Part shown: positions 44,587 to 51,642 of the stretch, piece by piece
Layout: every line of letters begins with the position of its first letter
Position numbering within the stretch: the first letter of the stretch is position 1
Source of the DNA: Planctomyces sp. SH-PL62
GTDB lineage: Bacteria > Planctomycetota > Planctomycetia > Isosphaerales > Isosphaeraceae
Length of the DNA: 64,000 nucleotides
Assembly (NCBI RefSeq): GCF_001610895.1
Contig: NZ_CP011273.1
Span: forward strand, 682,001 to 746,000
Direction of reading: 5' to 3'
Made by a program: the position numbers and the translations under genes
The notes under the pieces: generated by a model
The model's input: only the letters and a program-made list of their open reading frames with translations
What the model was told of the DNA's origin: nothing
Database searches by the model: none

Positions 44587-45681
44587 ATGAGAACGCTGAT
44601 CGACGGCCACCTGGACCTGGCCTGGAACGCCCTGGGATGGAATCGCGACATCACGCTCGACCTGGACGAGATGAACCGCCAGGAAGCGAACCTCACCGAC
44701 CACCCCGGGCGGGGCAGGGCGACCACCAGCCTGCCGGAGCTGCGCCGGGGGGGCGTGGCCATCTGCCAGGCCACGCTCCTCGCCCGCGCCAAGGCCGTCA
44801 GCCGATGGGACGAGTTCGCGCAGGGGCCGCCTCGCGCCAACCTGGATTGGCGCACCCAGGAGGGCGCATCGGCCGCCGCCCGGGGCCAGCTCGCCTACTA
44901 TGAATTGCTGGAGCGTCGCGACCTCCTGCGGCCGATCCGCACTCGCGCCGAGCTGGACGACCACTGGGCGCGCTGGGGGGCCGACCCGGATTCGACCCCG
45001 ATCGGCTACATCCTGGCGATGGAAGGCTCCGACCCCATCGTCGAGCCCGACCACGCCCAGGCCTGGTGGGACCTGGGCCTCCGCTCCGCGAACCTGGCCC
45101 ACTACGGCGCCAGCCGCTACGCTGTCGGCACCGGCGAGGAAGGCCCGCTGACCCCCGCCGGCCTGCGGCTGCTCCGCGAGTTCGAACGCCTGGGCATGAT
45201 CCTGGATGTCACCCACCTTTCCGACGAAGGGTTCTTCCAGGCGATCGACGCGTTCTCCGGCCCGATCCTCGCCAGCCACAACAACTGCCGCGCGCTCGTC
45301 CCGGCCCAGCGCCAGTTCTCCGACGAGCAGTTGAAGCTCCTGATCGAGCGCGGCGGCGTGATCGGCGTGGCGCTGGACGCCTGGATGATGTACCCCGGCT
45401 GGGTCCGGGGCGAGACCTCGCGCGACGTCGTCGCCCTGTCGGCGCTGGTCGACCACATCGACCACATCTGCCAGCTCGTCGGGAATACGCGCCACGTGGC
45501 GATCGGCAGCGACCTCGACGGCGGCTTCGGCACCGAACAGACCCCGAAGGGCCTGGACCGGATCTCCGACCTCCAGAAACTCGATGGCGACCTCGCCGCC
45601 CGAGGCTACCCCGACGAGGCCGTCGACGCCGTCTTCCACGGCAACTGGCTGCGCTTCTTCCGGGAGCACCTGCCGGCCTGA
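44587..45681 (+). CDS. Membrane dipeptidase (peptidase M19 family)
   Basis: This 364-residue zinc dipeptidase is related to renal dipeptidase. It has IDGHLDLAWN near the start, with the first metal ligands, and ILAMEGSDPI with the bridging Glu. LTPAGLRLLREFERLGMILDVTHLSDEGFF, ASHNNCRAL and HVAIGSDLDGGFG complete the binuclear metal site. M19 enzymes cleave dipeptides including mixed D/L forms. There is no signal peptide. GAGGAG lies about 12 bases before the ATG. It follows the small membrane-protein gene. Confidence 0.92.
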   Translation: MRTLIDGHLDLAWNALGWNRDITLDLDEMNRQEANLTDHPGRGRATTSLPELRRGGVAICQATLLARAKAVSRWDEFAQGPPRANLDWRTQEGASAAARGQLAYYELLERRDLLRPIRTRAELDDHWARWGADPDSTPIGYILAMEGSDPIVEPDHAQAWWDLGLRSANLAHYGASRYAVGTGEEGPLTPAGLRLLREFERLGMILDVTHLSDEGFFQAIDAFSGPILASHNNCRALVPAQRQFSDEQLKLLIERGGVIGVALDAWMMYPGWVRGETSRDVVALSALVDHIDHICQLVGNTRHVAIGSDLDGGFGTEQTPKGLDRISDLQKLDGDLAARGYPDEAVDAVFHGNWLRFFREHLPA

Positions 45682-45780: not shown

Positions 45781-48700
45781 GTGGCCGAGGTCACATGGAA
45801 CGAGCGCGCGTGGTGTGAGCAGGCCCGGTGCCTCGCCCGGCTGGGGGAGGGGGGCGGGGACGAGCCCGCGCGCGCCGCGAGGCTGGCCCGGTTGCTGGCC
45901 CACGTCGAGGTCGGCTGGCGGATCCGATCCGGGCTCGACGCCCATCCCCCCGACTCGGAACTCGAGCGGATCCGCCGCGCCGTGGTCCGGGGCCTGGCCG
46001 AGCTGAAGCGGGCCGTCGAAGATTTGATCGCCGGGGCCGATCCCGAGGGGGGCGTGCACCGCCTGATGACGGCGAAGCTCCGCGAGTGGACCGCCCGCGA
46101 GCGGCTGGCGCTCCAGGGGCTCACCAACCTCGGCGCGGGCGACCCGCTCCACAGGCTCCTGGCGATCGACGCCTTGCGAGGCGACCTCGACTGGCTGGGG
46201 ACCCTGCTGGACCGCCTGGAAGGGGAGCCGGGCCCGGGCCCGGCCGCCTGGCTCGAAGTCGAGCTGGCCAAGGTCCGGCGGCTCCTGGAGCGCGAGCCCA
46301 GACACCACTCCAGGGGCCGGGCCCGCCGCGCGACGCTCCGGGCCCGCTGCGAGCGGATGCGCGGCATCCTCCTGGAACGTCGGGTTCGCAAGGAGCTGGA
46401 CGCCGCCTTCGAGGACGCCACGCCCGAGCGGCTCGCCCTGGTGCGCAACAAGCTCTCGCGGCTCCAGGCCCGCGTCGGCGCGCTGGAGCTGGTCGACGAC
46501 GAGCCGGGGCCGGAACCCGACGAGGACGCCCCCGTCGCCGCCGAGGCCGAGCGCCGTGGCGACGACCTCGAAGCCTGGACGACGGCCCTGGCCGCCCGTC
46601 GCGGCGAGGTCGCCCGGCGGCTCGACGCCAGCCTGATGCAGCTCCCCCCGAACGAGGCGGGGAGGGCCTGCGAGCGGATCGTCCAGGGCGCTCGCGACGA
46701 GCTCGCCGAGATGGTCGCCTTCCTCCAGGACGCCCCCCTGCGCCGGGCGGTCCTCCGTTTGGAGACCGCCGAGGAGGACGTCGACGGGCTCGCCGAGGCC
46801 GTCCAGGCCACACGCCGCGCCTGCCGCCGCGCCCCCGAAGACCAGCGGCCCTCGGCCGAGGAGGCCCGACGGCTCGACGAGGCCCTCGTCGACGTCCGCC
46901 GCCTTCGCCGCACCATCTGGTGCGAATGGCAGGAGAAGCTGCTGACGCTCCGGCTCCGCAACCTGCTCGGCGCCGCCGGCGCGGCGTTCCTGGAGAATGC
47001 GGTCATCCTCCTGATCGTGGCGCTGTCGTTCCTGATCGTCGCCGAGACCTTCCTCGACCGCGCCGGCGGGCTCACCCCGGAACGCCGCGCCCTGTTCGCC
47101 TGGCTCGACCTGGCCGTCTGCTCGGGGCTCCTCGCCGAGTTCGCGCTCCGGCTGATCCTGGCCCCGGCGAAGGGGCGCTACCTCTGGCGCCACTTCGCGA
47201 TCGACTTCCTGGCGTCGCTGCCGTTCGGGTTCCTCGCGTACGCGCTCGACGCCCACCTGACGACGCGCGGGGAGGAGACGCTCTGGCTCCTGCGCTATCT
47301 GCGGTTCGCCCGGATGCTGGAGTTGCTCCGGCTGGCGATCCCCGTCGTCCGGGTGATGCGGCTGATCCTCTTCGCGCTCCGCCTCAGCGACCGCCTGGTG
47401 CGCCGCAATGCGGGACTGCTGAACCGCAACATCATCCTGTTCGAGCCCAACCGCGCGCATCACGCCGAGTCCGGCGACCGTCATCGCCTGATCATGCTCC
47501 GCACGGAACTCCAGGCCGCCGAGGCCGCGCTCGATCGCCGCCTCCACGCCGGCCAGCAGAACGACCTGGCCGCGCGTCGGCTCGCCGACCTGGGAGTGCG
47601 CCTCGAATTCCTGCCGGACCGCTACATCGAGCCCCTGAGCGAGCACCGCGACGAGCGCGAGATTCCCGTCGAGGCCCTCGTCGAGCGGCTGATCCAGCTC
47701 ACGCCCGAGACCCTGATGGACCGGATGGGCCAGACCTTCGTCGCCTCGGTCGACGCATACATCCGGGTCCTCGACTTCCCCATCGTGCGCCGCCTCCCCC
47801 TGATCCGCAACCTCGTCGCGCACCGCGAGAAGTCGCCGGCGGAGGCCGTCACGCTGGCGGCGAACTACGTGGGCTACGCCATCCAGCGCGGGCTGGACGT
47901 CATCTATTTCCTGGCCGACCTCCAGGCGACGCTCTCGCCGGCGATCTTCCTCGACCGCCTGGGCCTGACCCTGGTCAACGCCACTCGCACGCCGGCCAAG
48001 CGGCTGCTCTGGTTGGGGTCCGCCTTCCTGATCCTGTTCTTGATCGTCAACCTCGTCACCTTCCTGAGCGCGTTTCGGCCGTTCGTCGACGCCGTGCAGC
48101 AGCGCCTGGGGTGGCCGGTGATCGCGCTCGGCGGCGTCTGCCTCGCCATCTGGTCGCTCGGCTCCTGGCTCCGCAAGATCGCCAACCAGTCGGCCGATTT
48201 CTGCGAGCGGATCGTCGAGGCCCAGTTCGCCGCCCAGACGAAGACGTTCAAGGCCCGCCGATCCGAGCAGGACGCCCGGTTCCTCGCCGAGCGGGTCGTC
48301 GATCCCGAGCTGGCGATGCGGGCGGCCGACGACCACCAGCCGGAACTCTACCGCACCCGCCCCACCGCCGCCGCCGACGTCGAAGCCCTGTTCGCCGGCC
48401 CGCAGACCTGCTTCGCCAATCGCGAGCTGACCTTCCTCCGCAACATCCGGCTCCTCTACCAGGACTACCTGGACGGCTCGCCGTTCCACCGCAGCGACGT
48501 GAAGACCTCGGTGCAACTCCTGGGCAATCTCGCGCTCGCGAACCTGAGACGGAGCCGCCTCGATTTCGTCCTCCGCGAAAGCCGGGCCCTGGGGAAGCTC
48601 GACCTGAGCCGGGCGGGGGGGCTCCTGGGTGGGCCGTATCTCTGGTTCAACTACATCACGCGGAGCATCGTCCAGGAGACGGCCGTCCTGCTCCTGGACT

Positions 48701-50244
48701 ACAACGCCAACGCCGTCCCGCTGGACCGCCTGGCCTGCTCCCCCCCCGAACGCCGGCGGGCGTTCCAGGAATGGCTCGGCGAGCGACTTAAAATCGACCC
48801 GAATGAAGTCCGGCTCCCAGCGCCCAACGTCCCCAGGGCGTGGGAGCCGGGGGGCTCCGAGCCCCAGCCCCCCCGCGCCCCAAGGCGGCGCGAGGCCGCC
48901 GCGTTCCTGGAGACCGTCGAGTTCACCGCGATCGACTTCCTCGCCGAGGAGCCCGATCGGGACCTAGAAATCCTCGGCCGGTTCGGACCCCAGGTCGCGC
49001 AGCTCGTCCGCCGCGACCGCCAGCAGAACGTCCGACGCGCCTTCCGCAGCTTCCCGCTCCAGGAACTGCCGCCGGCCCAGCGCACCATCAATCCCTACGC
49101 CTTCTATGAGAGTCGGCTGTCGGGGGGCCGGATCGTCTTCTTCCCGATCGTCGTCGCCGCCGCACTCTCACGGAGCGCCTGGATCGCCGTGCGCGGGGTG
49201 TACGACGGCGTCCACCAGATCCTCAACCCCCGCGTGAGCCGCGACCGCGAGGTCCCGGCCGACTCCTACGCCGCGGCCCATCGCAAGATCCACCGGATGC
49301 GCAAGCCGGTGTTCATGGGTTCGCTCTGGCTCCGCGCCCGGCTCGACGTGGAGTATCTGGGCCTGCGGCTGCCGACCTCGCCGGTCGTGCTGGGGTTCGA
49401 TTCGACGATGGAGTCCGACCTGGACTTCATCGGCGCCTCGCGCAAGGATCGGATCATCGCCGAGCAGATCCGCCGCGACCACCAGCGCCGGCTGACCTGG
49501 ACGGCGGGCTGGCTGGAGCGGTTCGGCTGGACGCTCGACGAGCTTCCCGACTACCTCGCTCGCGAGATCCCCTACCTGGCGAATCGGGCCGCCGAGGCCC
49601 TCCGCGCCCTGGTCGCCGCCTGCGCCCTCGACCACGACGACGTCGCCACGCTCGGGCTTTCGATCGAGGCCCTGACGATCCTGACGGAGTACGCCGCCTC
49701 CCCCTCGTCGAACCTCAAGAAACTCCCCGCCGGCCTCCCGGACCCGGTCCTCGACCCGAGGCGGATCTGGCGGCCCGTCCCCCGCAAGGGCCCCCCGTGG
49801 CGACGGCTGTTCGACCTGCCGGCGTTCGCCCACCACGGCCCGGTCGCCCGGAAACGGATCGTCGCCTTCCTCCGCCGCCACCGCCGCGCGACCCGGGGCT
49901 GGTTCCGCGTCGTCATGGGGCAGGGGGGGGCCGACCCCTGGGCCGAGGTCCGCTCGCGGCTCCACGACGTCCTGCTCAAGACCGACCTCTGGAGCGACCA
50001 GATCCTCATCCTCCGCGCCGTGCAGACCCTCACCATGCTCGACGTCCACCACAACTGCGAGCTGGTCTGGTCGCTGGGCGGCTACGAGGACCCCGAGCCC
50101 GCCGAGCCCCCTCCGCCCCCCGCAACGGCGGCGGCCCCCTCGCCTCCGACTGGTGGTCCGACCGACCCGACCCGGAACACGTCGCGGCCGAGGCGTGAGG
50201 ACACCTTGCAATGGCATGAACATGTTATTCAGTGCCAAACGTGA
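45781..50244 (+). CDS. Giant membrane protein with voltage-sensor-like domain
   Basis: This 1487-residue protein is largely helical and Arg/Glu-rich to about residue 400, where a block resembling the S1-S4 voltage-sensor of ion channels begins. Membrane segments lie at about 401-423, 439-461 and 473-492, then an S4-like helix (about 500-536, RYLRFARMLELLRLAIPVVRVMRLI) with Arg at every third position. No pore helix or selectivity-filter motif follows. Two further hydrophobic segments lie at about 744-797 and one near 1118-1140, inside long soluble regions with no recognised domain. The start is GTG. The last 29 bases overlap the next gene. Confidence 0.7.
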   Translation: MAEVTWNERAWCEQARCLARLGEGGGDEPARAARLARLLAHVEVGWRIRSGLDAHPPDSELERIRRAVVRGLAELKRAVEDLIAGADPEGGVHRLMTAKLREWTARERLALQGLTNLGAGDPLHRLLAIDALRGDLDWLGTLLDRLEGEPGPGPAAWLEVELAKVRRLLEREPRHHSRGRARRATLRARCERMRGILLERRVRKELDAAFEDATPERLALVRNKLSRLQARVGALELVDDEPGPEPDEDAPVAAEAERRGDDLEAWTTALAARRGEVARRLDASLMQLPPNEAGRACERIVQGARDELAEMVAFLQDAPLRRAVLRLETAEEDVDGLAEAVQATRRACRRAPEDQRPSAEEARRLDEALVDVRRLRRTIWCEWQEKLLTLRLRNLLGAAGAAFLENAVILLIVALSFLIVAETFLDRAGGLTPERRALFAWLDLAVCSGLLAEFALRLILAPAKGRYLWRHFAIDFLASLPFGFLAYALDAHLTTRGEETLWLLRYLRFARMLELLRLAIPVVRVMRLILFALRLSDRLVRRNAGLLNRNIILFEPNRAHHAESGDRHRLIMLRTELQAAEAALDRRLHAGQQNDLAARRLADLGVRLEFLPDRYIEPLSEHRDEREIPVEALVERLIQLTPETLMDRMGQTFVASVDAYIRVLDFPIVRRLPLIRNLVAHREKSPAEAVTLAANYVGYAIQRGLDVIYFLADLQATLSPAIFLDRLGLTLVNATRTPAKRLLWLGSAFLILFLIVNLVTFLSAFRPFVDAVQQRLGWPVIALGGVCLAIWSLGSWLRKIANQSADFCERIVEAQFAAQTKTFKARRSEQDARFLAERVVDPELAMRAADDHQPELYRTRPTAAADVEALFAGPQTCFANRELTFLRNIRLLYQDYLDGSPFHRSDVKTSVQLLGNLALANLRRSRLDFVLRESRALGKLDLSRAGGLLGGPYLWFNYITRSIVQETAVLLLDYNANAVPLDRLACSPPERRRAFQEWLGERLKIDPNEVRLPAPNVPRAWEPGGSEPQPPRAPRRREAAAFLETVEFTAIDFLAEEPDRDLEILGRFGPQVAQLVRRDRQQNVRRAFRSFPLQELPPAQRTINPYAFYESRLSGGRIVFFPIVVAAALSRSAWIAVRGVYDGVHQILNPRVSRDREVPADSYAAAHRKIHRMRKPVFMGSLWLRARLDVEYLGLRLPTSPVVLGFDSTMESDLDFIGASRKDRIIAEQIRRDHQRRLTWTAGWLERFGWTLDELPDYLAREIPYLANRAAEALRALVAACALDHDDVATLGLSIEALTILTEYAASPSSNLKKLPAGLPDPVLDPRRIWRPVPRKGPPWRRLFDLPAFAHHGPVARKRIVAFLRRHRRATRGWFRVVMGQGGADPWAEVRSRLHDVLLKTDLWSDQILILRAVQTLTMLDVHHNCELVWSLGGYEDPEPAEPPPPPATAAAPSPPTGGPTDPTRNTSRPRREDTLQWHEHVIQCQT

Positions 50245-51013
50245 ACAAGAACAATCTGCGACATCGGACGCCGGGCCGCCAGCGCGCGCCCGTTCGTTCG
50301 CGGTGGTCGTCCACGACGTCGCGCCGGCTTTCCTGGGGCGGCTCGTCGCCATCCATCGCGCGCTCGCGCCACGGCTCGGAGACCGGATCTCCGCGGCCGT
50401 CGTCCCCTGCTGGCGCGGAACGCCGCTGGGCGTAGGGGGCTCCGACGCCGAGTTCGTCCGGCTCATCGATGAGGGCTTCGGCGAGGTGTTGCAACACGGC
50501 TGCACTCACCTTCAGGACCGGCCCGGCGTGATCTCGCTCTTCTCGGGCCGTTCGAACGAGCTGAGCGGCCTGTCGACGGCCGAGACCCGCGCCCGACTGG
50601 AGCGCGGCCGCGAGATCCTCCGGCGGCGTTTGCGGTCCCCCGTCGCCGGCTTCACGGCCCCGGCCTGGCAGGCCGGCCGCGCGACGACGGACGAGCTGTC
50701 CCGTCTCGGCTTCGAATATCTGGTCGCTTTCGGCGCAATCCGGTTCGCCCGCAAGCCGCCGATCCCGCTGACCACCTGGTCATGGGACTGGGGGGTCGTC
50801 GGCCCTCTCGGCCGGGTCGGCGAGTGGCTCGGCGACGGCCTCGCCGCGCTCCGACCGGACGCCTCCCCCTGCGTCGTCATCCACCCGGCCGACGTCGACC
50901 GGGGCTATCTCCCCAGGAGTCTCGGCGTCATCGACGGGCTCCTTCGAGCGGGGCGCGTCCCCGTCCTCTTCGGGGACCTGGCCGCCGTTCCCACGGAGGG
51001 ACCGGCCCGTTGA
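50216..51013 (+). CDS. Polysaccharide-deacetylase-like protein (DUF2334 type)
   Basis: This 265-residue protein has the polysaccharide-deacetylase layout: FAVVVHDVAPAF with an Asp where the catalytic base sits, HGCTHL with the metal-binding His residues, then FTAPAWQAGRATTDEL and VVIHPADVDRG. DUF2334 members are related to NodB-type deacetylases. It overlaps the end of the giant gene by 29 bases and the following methyltransferase by one base (TGATG), so the group is tightly coupled. It probably acts on a carbohydrate or peptidoglycan component. The start is ATG at 50216; another Met follows two codons later. Confidence 0.75.
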   Translation: MNMLFSAKREQEQSATSDAGPPARARSFAVVVHDVAPAFLGRLVAIHRALAPRLGDRISAAVVPCWRGTPLGVGGSDAEFVRLIDEGFGEVLQHGCTHLQDRPGVISLFSGRSNELSGLSTAETRARLERGREILRRRLRSPVAGFTAPAWQAGRATTDELSRLGFEYLVAFGAIRFARKPPIPLTTWSWDWGVVGPLGRVGEWLGDGLAALRPDASPCVVIHPADVDRGYLPRSLGVIDGLLRAGRVPVLFGDLAAVPTEGPAR

Positions 51014-51642
51014 TGCACTCGCTCCACGGCCTGTTCCACCGTCGGCTCGACCGGCGCGCCGAGCGGCTCGCCGGTCGTCTCGCCCCTCACCTCCCCGCCG
51101 AGGCGCGGCTGCTCGACATCGGCTCGGGGACCGGCCATAATGCGCGGAGCTTGCGTCGGCGGCTGGGCGGGGCGTGCCTGGAGGCCGACGTCGTCGACTT
51201 CCATGTCGTGGGGGACGGGCCGATGCTCTTCGACGGCGAGCGACTCCCACTGGCCGACGACGCGGTCGACGTGAGCCTGATCATCCACGCGCTGAGCTAC
51301 GCCGACGACCCGGTCGGCCTGCTGCGCGAGGCCGGCCGCGTGGCGTCGCGCAGGGTCGTCCTGATCCAATCGACATATCGAGGTTCCCTGGGACGAGTCG
51401 TGCTCGGTGGGCGGGGCTGGGTCCAGGGTCGCGGCGCCTTCCGGGCCTGCCGGGCGCTCGGTCTCATCCCCCCGGTTCGCGATCCGCTCCGGCCTCGACG
51501 CGCCTTCACGCGCGAGCGGCTCGAAGCGGCCGTCGAGGAAGCCGGCCTGCGTGTGAAGCGTCTTGAACCCGAGCCCGGCCTCGCGGCGATCACGAGTCGA
51601 GACCTCCTCGTCCTCGACCGTCCCTCACGTTCGACCGAGTGA
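51013..51642 (+). CDS. SAM-dependent methyltransferase (class I)
   Basis: This 209-residue protein has the Rossmann-like methyltransferase fold: LLDIGSGTGHNARSL (SAM-binding loop, about 33-47), EADVVDFHVVGDGP (motif II) and DVSLIIHALSYADDP (motif III/post). The C-terminal half is more variable. The target is unknown, but the position between a deacetylase and a glycosyltransferase suggests modification of a surface glycan. The ATG overlaps the previous stop by one base, and the next gene starts 10 bases after the stop. Confidence 0.82.
   Translation: MHSLHGLFHRRLDRRAERLAGRLAPHLPAEARLLDIGSGTGHNARSLRRRLGGACLEADVVDFHVVGDGPMLFDGERLPLADDAVDVSLIIHALSYADDPVGLLREAGRVASRRVVLIQSTYRGSLGRVVLGGRGWVQGRGAFRACRALGLIPPVRDPLRPRRAFTRERLEAAVEEAGLRVKRLEPEPGLAAITSRDLLVLDRPSRSTE

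Follow-up and report, generated by a model that had tools for sequence, protein, structure and literature searches.

Can a bacterial voltage sensor act on something other than an ion-selective pore? The question is raised by a 64,000-nucleotide stretch of the genome of Planctomyces sp. SH-PL62 (contig NZ_CP011273.1, positions 682,001 to 746,000; hereafter the window), in which an uninterrupted frame with a GTG start encodes a protein of 1487 residues. An initial annotation described a block near residues 400-536 that resembles the S1-S4 voltage sensor of ion channels, saw no pore after it, and proposed a new class of voltage- or membrane-tension-responsive protein. As read from sequence, the members of this protein family that we examined have a voltage-sensor domain (VSD) that carries countercharges and a series of S4 arginines; a classical pore is absent, and conserved partner domains accompany the sensor. 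We favour, with somewhat better than even confidence, the explanation that this is a VSD protein in which the sensor acts on a non-channel effector. Responsiveness to membrane tension is unsupported.

Homology to channel sensors carries most of this argument. Ion_trans, the only Pfam family matched in the window protein at E ≤ 1, covers residues 404-524 (profile positions 4-114 of 241; E 4.5e-6, 26.5 bits with a cut-off of 25), and among the relatives scanned it was matched in 11 of 14 close members, with E values up to 1, and in 14 of the 20 distant ones, with E values up to 0.1 (one of the 20 is without the region). A phmmer search of PDB sequences gave weak matches to HCN4, HCN1 and Kv3.1 over the S1-S4 stretch (best E 3.1e-4), and a profile of the family VSD (A4) matched Nav1.5 (E 5.6e-11), Kv3.1 (2.7e-8) and the KvAP VSD (6.2e-6). 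The acids of S1, S2 and S3 fall on channel acids in the HMMER alignments to Nav1.5. In an alignment of 42 proteins (the window protein, 22 close and 19 distant ones; mean pairwise identity of the VSD 0.39), position 443 is Asp throughout, position 453 is Glu in 35 members and Asp in seven, position 475 is Asp in 38 and Glu in four, and position 422 is acidic in 41 (37 Glu, four Asp; Gln in one). D443 and E453 lie 10 residues apart in S2, which we take to be the spacing of E283 and E293 in S2 of Shaker. Judged by these alignments, residues ~398-545 are an S1-S4 VSD homologous to those of voltage-gated channels. Among six candidates scored in the window genome, no second gene matched Ion_trans at E ≤ 0.001.

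The predicted structure is consistent with this assignment. An AlphaFold2 (AF2) model of residues 5-870, built from 14 sequences (protein residue = model number + 4), has a mean predicted local distance difference test score (pLDDT) of 72.6 (block values of 78-87 for S1-S3) and places a helix at each of S1 to S4. With VIA-align, model residues 387-545 superpose on the KvAP VSD (2kyh; Z 11.2, 136 aligned residues, root-mean-square deviation (rmsd) 4.5, 18% identity), and mouse TPC1 reaches Z 8.1 (rmsd 11.7). The bundle first described near residues 400-536 is thus borne out by an Ion_trans match over the cut-off, by the Nav and Kv profile matches and by an AF2 bundle on the KvAP VSD.

The S4 segment gives a more mixed picture. 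Arginine at every third position, as initially described, is present at four of five places (R505, R508, R511 and R517), the fourth being E514; R524 and R527 follow. Conservation of these arginines in homologues holds for the inner ones (Arg in 40 of 42 members at 511 and in all 42 at both 527 and 534) and is incomplete for the outer ones (24 of 42 at 505, 31 of 42 at 508). Arg also occurs in 23 members at position 514, 39 at 517 (with three gaps), 15 at 520 and 38 at 524. The voltage-sensor reading had been made to depend on a predicted bundle and on conserved arginines; such a bundle is indeed predicted, and conservation holds for the inner arginines. Basic pairs spaced i,i+3 number 190 across the 42 members, compared with a shuffled mean of 54.7 (sd 5.9; 0 of 1000 shuffles reach 190, relatedness being uncorrected), and in the window protein alone this spacing is modestly above chance, matched by 26 of 1000 shuffles. 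The longest unbroken basic i+3 run is 6-8 in 14 of the 19 distant members and 4 in four others (L057, L068, L070 and L071); distant members with the full S4 series include L063, L064, L065 and L074. These sequences suggest an ancestral basic series that has been partly eroded in the window lineage, and the case for strong voltage dependence there is therefore weaker.

Several further observations weigh against a functioning sensor or against its coupling to an effector. Apart from the incompletely kept outer arginines, the basic run of the window protein, broken by E514, is only 3; runs in 23 close members are 2-6, at least 4 in only five; and the run of the distant member L066 is only 2. Position 450, three before the S2 Glu and presumably the aromatic site of the charge-transfer centre, is Phe in 25 members and Leu in 17, including the window protein. 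Within the AF2 bundle, confidence is lowest over S4 (pLDDT only 46-73). Unrelated helical proteins give similar VIA-align scores (top row Z 13.8, rmsd 16.0), helical models can reach a Z of 11 by chance, and Foldseek returned no match for the model of residues 5-870 at E ≤ 0.001. Finally, no effector activity is recognised (see below). The fold result supports a VSD without proving it, most weight lying with the sequence profile.

In many TRP channels, S1-S4 serves as a structural or ligand-binding module. The domain described here might likewise be insensitive to voltage, its arginines being kept for packing or lipid contact. The incomplete retention of the outer arginines, the Glu at 514 and short runs of the window lineage and the near absence of a run in L066 would all fit such a module, as would the fact that the two most conserved arginines, R527 and R534, lie past the positions usual for gating. 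However, the long runs in most distant members and a complete countercharge set in 42 of 42 members argue against it, and we consider this explanation improbable.

The statement that no pore follows the sensor is right if a classical S5-P-S6 pore is meant. Across 30 genomes with the family, 25 family genes gave an Ion_trans match, which in all 25 ended at profile positions 109-132 of 241; 21 other genes of these genomes, taken as controls, were matched through to positions 224-241, and the full-length control L099 has TVGYG. We thus ruled out a classical voltage-gated channel, the S5-P-S6 half of Ion_trans being unmatched in every matching family gene. The same genomes also hold 15 genes that match the pore half only and two that match the S1-S4 half only, and in five of them (G083, G120, G190, G191 and G232) the family gene has no Ion_trans match. 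What had been overlooked is a transmembrane (TM) hairpin at residues 739-798, separated from S4 by a linker of ~190 residues (mean pairwise identity 0.35 over residues 546-736), and a second hydrophobic stretch at residues 1118-1136. Given the hairpin, "no pore" is limited to "no classical pore".

The hairpin is also the basis of the main rival to a non-channel effector, namely a voltage-gated channel or transporter in which oligomeric TM5-TM6 hairpins line a non-classical pore, with a geometry like that of CorA or MscS, gated by the VSD. The conserved hairpin with its short loop and the long helix past TM6 would suit this arrangement, Gly784, Cys787, Gly794 and Trp796 are conserved in or near TM6, and a fusion of S1-S4 to CorA is present in two related genomes. 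On the other hand, Pfam scans of the window protein and of the close and distant members scanned gave no CorA, MscS or Ion_trans_2 match, the hairpin region 763-775 is 13 residues long in 36 of the 42 members, and conserved charges in the hairpin are confined to the ends of both helices. A filter-motif scan found no selectivity-filter motif conserved across the 42 members: a loose potassium-filter pattern occurs in two (L018 and L075), GFG in four (L012, L013, L068 and L069), and loose acidic patterns in scattered members only. The 42 hairpin sequences are likewise without a GMN motif. We regard a non-classical pore as unlikely, with perhaps one chance in four or five.

The fusions to CorA are of interest in themselves. 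In two other planctomycete genomes, the S1-S4 half of Ion_trans is followed by a CorA Mg2+ transporter domain (L097:1019-2437, 472 aa; L098:1095-2597, 500 aa), both domains being over the Pfam cut-offs. These proteins share with the 1487-aa family the phylum and the pairing of an S1-S4 half with a partner other than that of Kv channels. They differ in their small size and in a CorA partner with a GMN motif, whereas CorA is unmatched in the 1487-aa family with the same library. No mention of "voltage sensor domain" was found among the literature matches listed for such a fusion.

Conduction through the VSD itself, as in the Hv1 proton channel, is a further alternative, and a very improbable one. 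VSDs without a pore domain can conduct, as does Hv1 and, according to an excerpt of PMC5092046, the isolated Shaker VSD. However, the S4 Trp that a 2023 review (PMC10377628, in excerpt) gives as totally conserved in Hv1 is present in at most six of the 42 members at any S4 column. The S1 acids of the family lie at 405 and 422-428 with none in between, and the large conserved extra domains would be left unexplained. Excerpts of the same review state that there is no evidence for typical Hv1 channels in eubacteria and archaea.

If the VSD is coupled to a non-channel effector, the C-terminal region is its candidate site. Conservation here matches that of the VSD (mean pairwise identity 0.48 over residues 881-1015, 0.43 over 1040-1225, 0.28 over 1226-1370 and 0.41 over 1371-1437), and D906, N916, D941, W955, Y974, D1079, R1080, R1085, R1101, N1104, R1168, R1172, R1174, R1185, D1189, E1191 and Y1192 are each retained in 93% or more of 28 sequences. 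The region has no convincing match in Pfam, NCBIfam, PDB sequences or fold searches, and the C-terminal catalytic domain that the initial annotation proposed to look for was not recognised. NCBIfam gave only weak, insufficiently supported matches, to PspB for the window protein (E 0.21) and for one of 20 distant members (E 0.064). Against PDB sequences, the C-terminal profile A2 returned nothing at E ≤ 1 and profile A5 returned four at E ≤ 5, the best of which (0.037), a designed diiron protein, we took as helical noise. The C-terminal model (pLDDT 60, predicted template modelling score 0.54) gave an uninformative best VIA-align Z of 4.2 among 359 chains aligned; it is weak enough that the region could still have a known fold.

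The impression that the rest of the protein matches no recognised class was correct, since neither a phosphatase nor another known family was found. Pfam scans detected no phosphatase family in the window protein, in 13 C-terminal regions or in 20 distant members, and no Na+/H+ exchanger domain in the window protein and the close and distant members. PADLOC gave no match, and a defence-protein reading was dropped. Structure matches of the N-terminal region to YopO, the Munc13 MUN domain, CorA and importins were taken as generic long-helix similarity.

Under the non-channel-effector explanation, both termini and the linker would lie in the cytoplasm, and S4 would shift on a change of membrane potential. 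S4 is predicted to run on into the cytoplasm as one helix, which could relay this shift to the linker, the hairpin and the C-terminal effector and so alter effector activity or the binding of a partner. The principle would be that of voltage-sensing phosphatases and SLC9C1, by analogy, with a different output. The family resembles the VSDs of Nav1.5, Kv3.1 and KvAP in S1-S4 homology, S1-S3 acids and S4 arginines, but its proteins, with 1487 residues in the window member and unrecognised partner domains, have no S5-P-S6 after the VSD. Other comparisons draw on sources available in excerpt. Ci-VSP also has a VSD with no pore domain and a cytoplasmic region, whereas the family is bacterial and has an extra TM hairpin; identity as a voltage-sensing phosphatase was ruled out, as no PTEN-like phosphatase domain was matched. 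The sperm Na+/H+ exchanger SLC9C1 likewise holds a VSD within a protein with other membrane parts, but the family has no exchanger domain by Pfam, and this identity was also rejected. Hv1 and TMEM266 (the latter compared by description only) share a VSD with no pore domain; both are small and eukaryotic, and the Hv1 S4 Trp is not kept in the family. An excerpt of PMC13095418 describes the S4 of TMEM266 as extended into a cytoplasmic coiled coil, its function being unknown.

VSDs with a non-channel output are thus already known in eukaryotes, according to these partial sources (voltage-sensing phosphatases, SLC9C1 and TMEM266, of unknown function). Excerpts of the 2023 review (PMC10377628) state that prokaryotic VSDs known so far all occur together with a pore domain selective for K, Na or Ca, as verified in databases; the present family, spread over many planctomycete families, conflicts with that statement. 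We found no literature pairing a voltage-sensing domain or voltage sensor with planctomycetes in a mainly open-access search, so that an earlier description is possible, and no such bacterial VSD family is described in the titles and abstract beginnings searched. As far as these searches reach, a bacterial VSD family with an unrecognised effector is new. We see about an even chance that it is the first prokaryotic family whose voltage sensor exerts direct control over a large non-channel effector, through a new domain of ~560 residues and in part of the planctomycetes. The family, with a sensor of the type familiar from the ion channels of nerve cells, suggests that membrane voltage in some bacteria serves to drive processes other than classical channel opening. 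It makes direct bacterial voltage signalling testable, bears on the origin of voltage-controlled non-channel proteins, and brings to light a large conserved domain without an assigned function.

Table. Gene and domain features of the 1487-residue VSD protein, in window coordinates.
Feature	Position	Strand	Basis
Gene of the 1487-aa VSD protein	45781..50244	+	Open frame; conserved in relatives
N-terminal helical region, residues 1-390, sequence-variable	45781..46950	+	AF2 helices; mean pairwise identity 0.22
S1, residues 398-428, acids at 405 and 422	46972..47064	+	AF2, hydropathy, alignment
S2, residues 433-460, D443 and E453	47077..47160	+	AF2, hydropathy, alignment
S3, residues 464-479, D475; hydropathy peak 472-490	47170..47217	+	AF2, hydropathy, alignment
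S4 and continuation, predicted single helix, residues 503-553 (R505, R508, R511, R517, R524, R527, R534)	47287..47439	+	AF2 (low pLDDT, see text), alignment
Linker, residues 554-736, probably cytoplasmic	47440..47988	+	Family mean without TM peak; identity
TM5, residues 739-758, hairpin helix 1	47995..48054	+	AF2, hydropathy, identity
TM6, residues 778-798; predicted helix extends to 838 as stalk	48112..48174	+	AF2, hydropathy, identity
Conserved helical C-terminal region, residues 881-1440, without recognised family or fold	48421..50100	+	
Hydrophobic or amphipathic stretch, residues 1118-1136	49132..49188	+	Hydropathy

Close relatives align to the window protein at 39-83% identity over most of its length. 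In a set of 59 genomes of relatives, 19 match, 16 from the same taxonomic family as the window and three from one other family of the same class. A short-peptide contig scan yielded 13 loci, all titled as planctomycete (including Paludisphaera soli, Aquisphaera insulae and Planctomycetes bacterium Pan216). The C-terminal profile detected the family in 41 of 199 sampled planctomycete genomes, and a broader profile in 58 of 343 and in 24 of 181 high-quality ones; among the 58 matches, those in G045, G164 and G284 are weak (E 1e-4 to 1e-3), and the one in G260 is a fragment of 38 positions. The distant set comprises 20 gene regions from 40 other matched genomes, of which 19 enter the VSD counts (the contig of L061 ends before the VSD); the open frames of these 19 are 1283-1526 residues long, with S1-S4 aligned ahead of the C-terminal region in every one. 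From the close set we left out L019, a fragment of 150 residues, and duplicate loci (L002, L004, L007, L009-L011, L014, L017, L020-L022) were replaced by L023-L027, L030, L032 and L033. Beyond Planctomycetota, the search consisted of the one contig scan, which finds close relatives only, and a plasmid search, in which tblastn gave no match to the window protein in 72,556 records.

Around the gene, a promoter and terminator scan gave no promoter-like sites, and two terminator-like sites compared with 1.5 expected. A Peptidase M19 (membrane dipeptidase) gene (44587-45681) adjoins it upstream on the same strand, and at 10 of the 13 contig-scan loci the family gene has a relative of this dipeptidase upstream. 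Downstream, also on the same strand, are genes for a DUF2334 protein (50153-51013) and a methyltransferase-domain protein (50782-51642); a DUF2334 gene is downstream in L023 too. The methyltransferase and rpsL neighbour queries had loose coordinates, and their failure to match elsewhere carries no meaning. Neighbours are common only within lineages; as none was found family-wide, no partner is proposed. Genes that we take to be MazG-like stand near the family gene in L033, L092 and L093, and secretin and T2SSE genes in L077, L078 and L081 (with Pfam names for L077 only). In one distant member, a gene for an MscS-type mechanosensitive channel (L077:11517-12644) lies 332 bases 3' of the family gene. 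Three distant genomes (L076, L078 and L081) have, downstream of the family gene, a frame that combines an Arf-like small GTPase domain with pentapeptide repeats, which in L076 is 953 aa long (L076:12510-15368).

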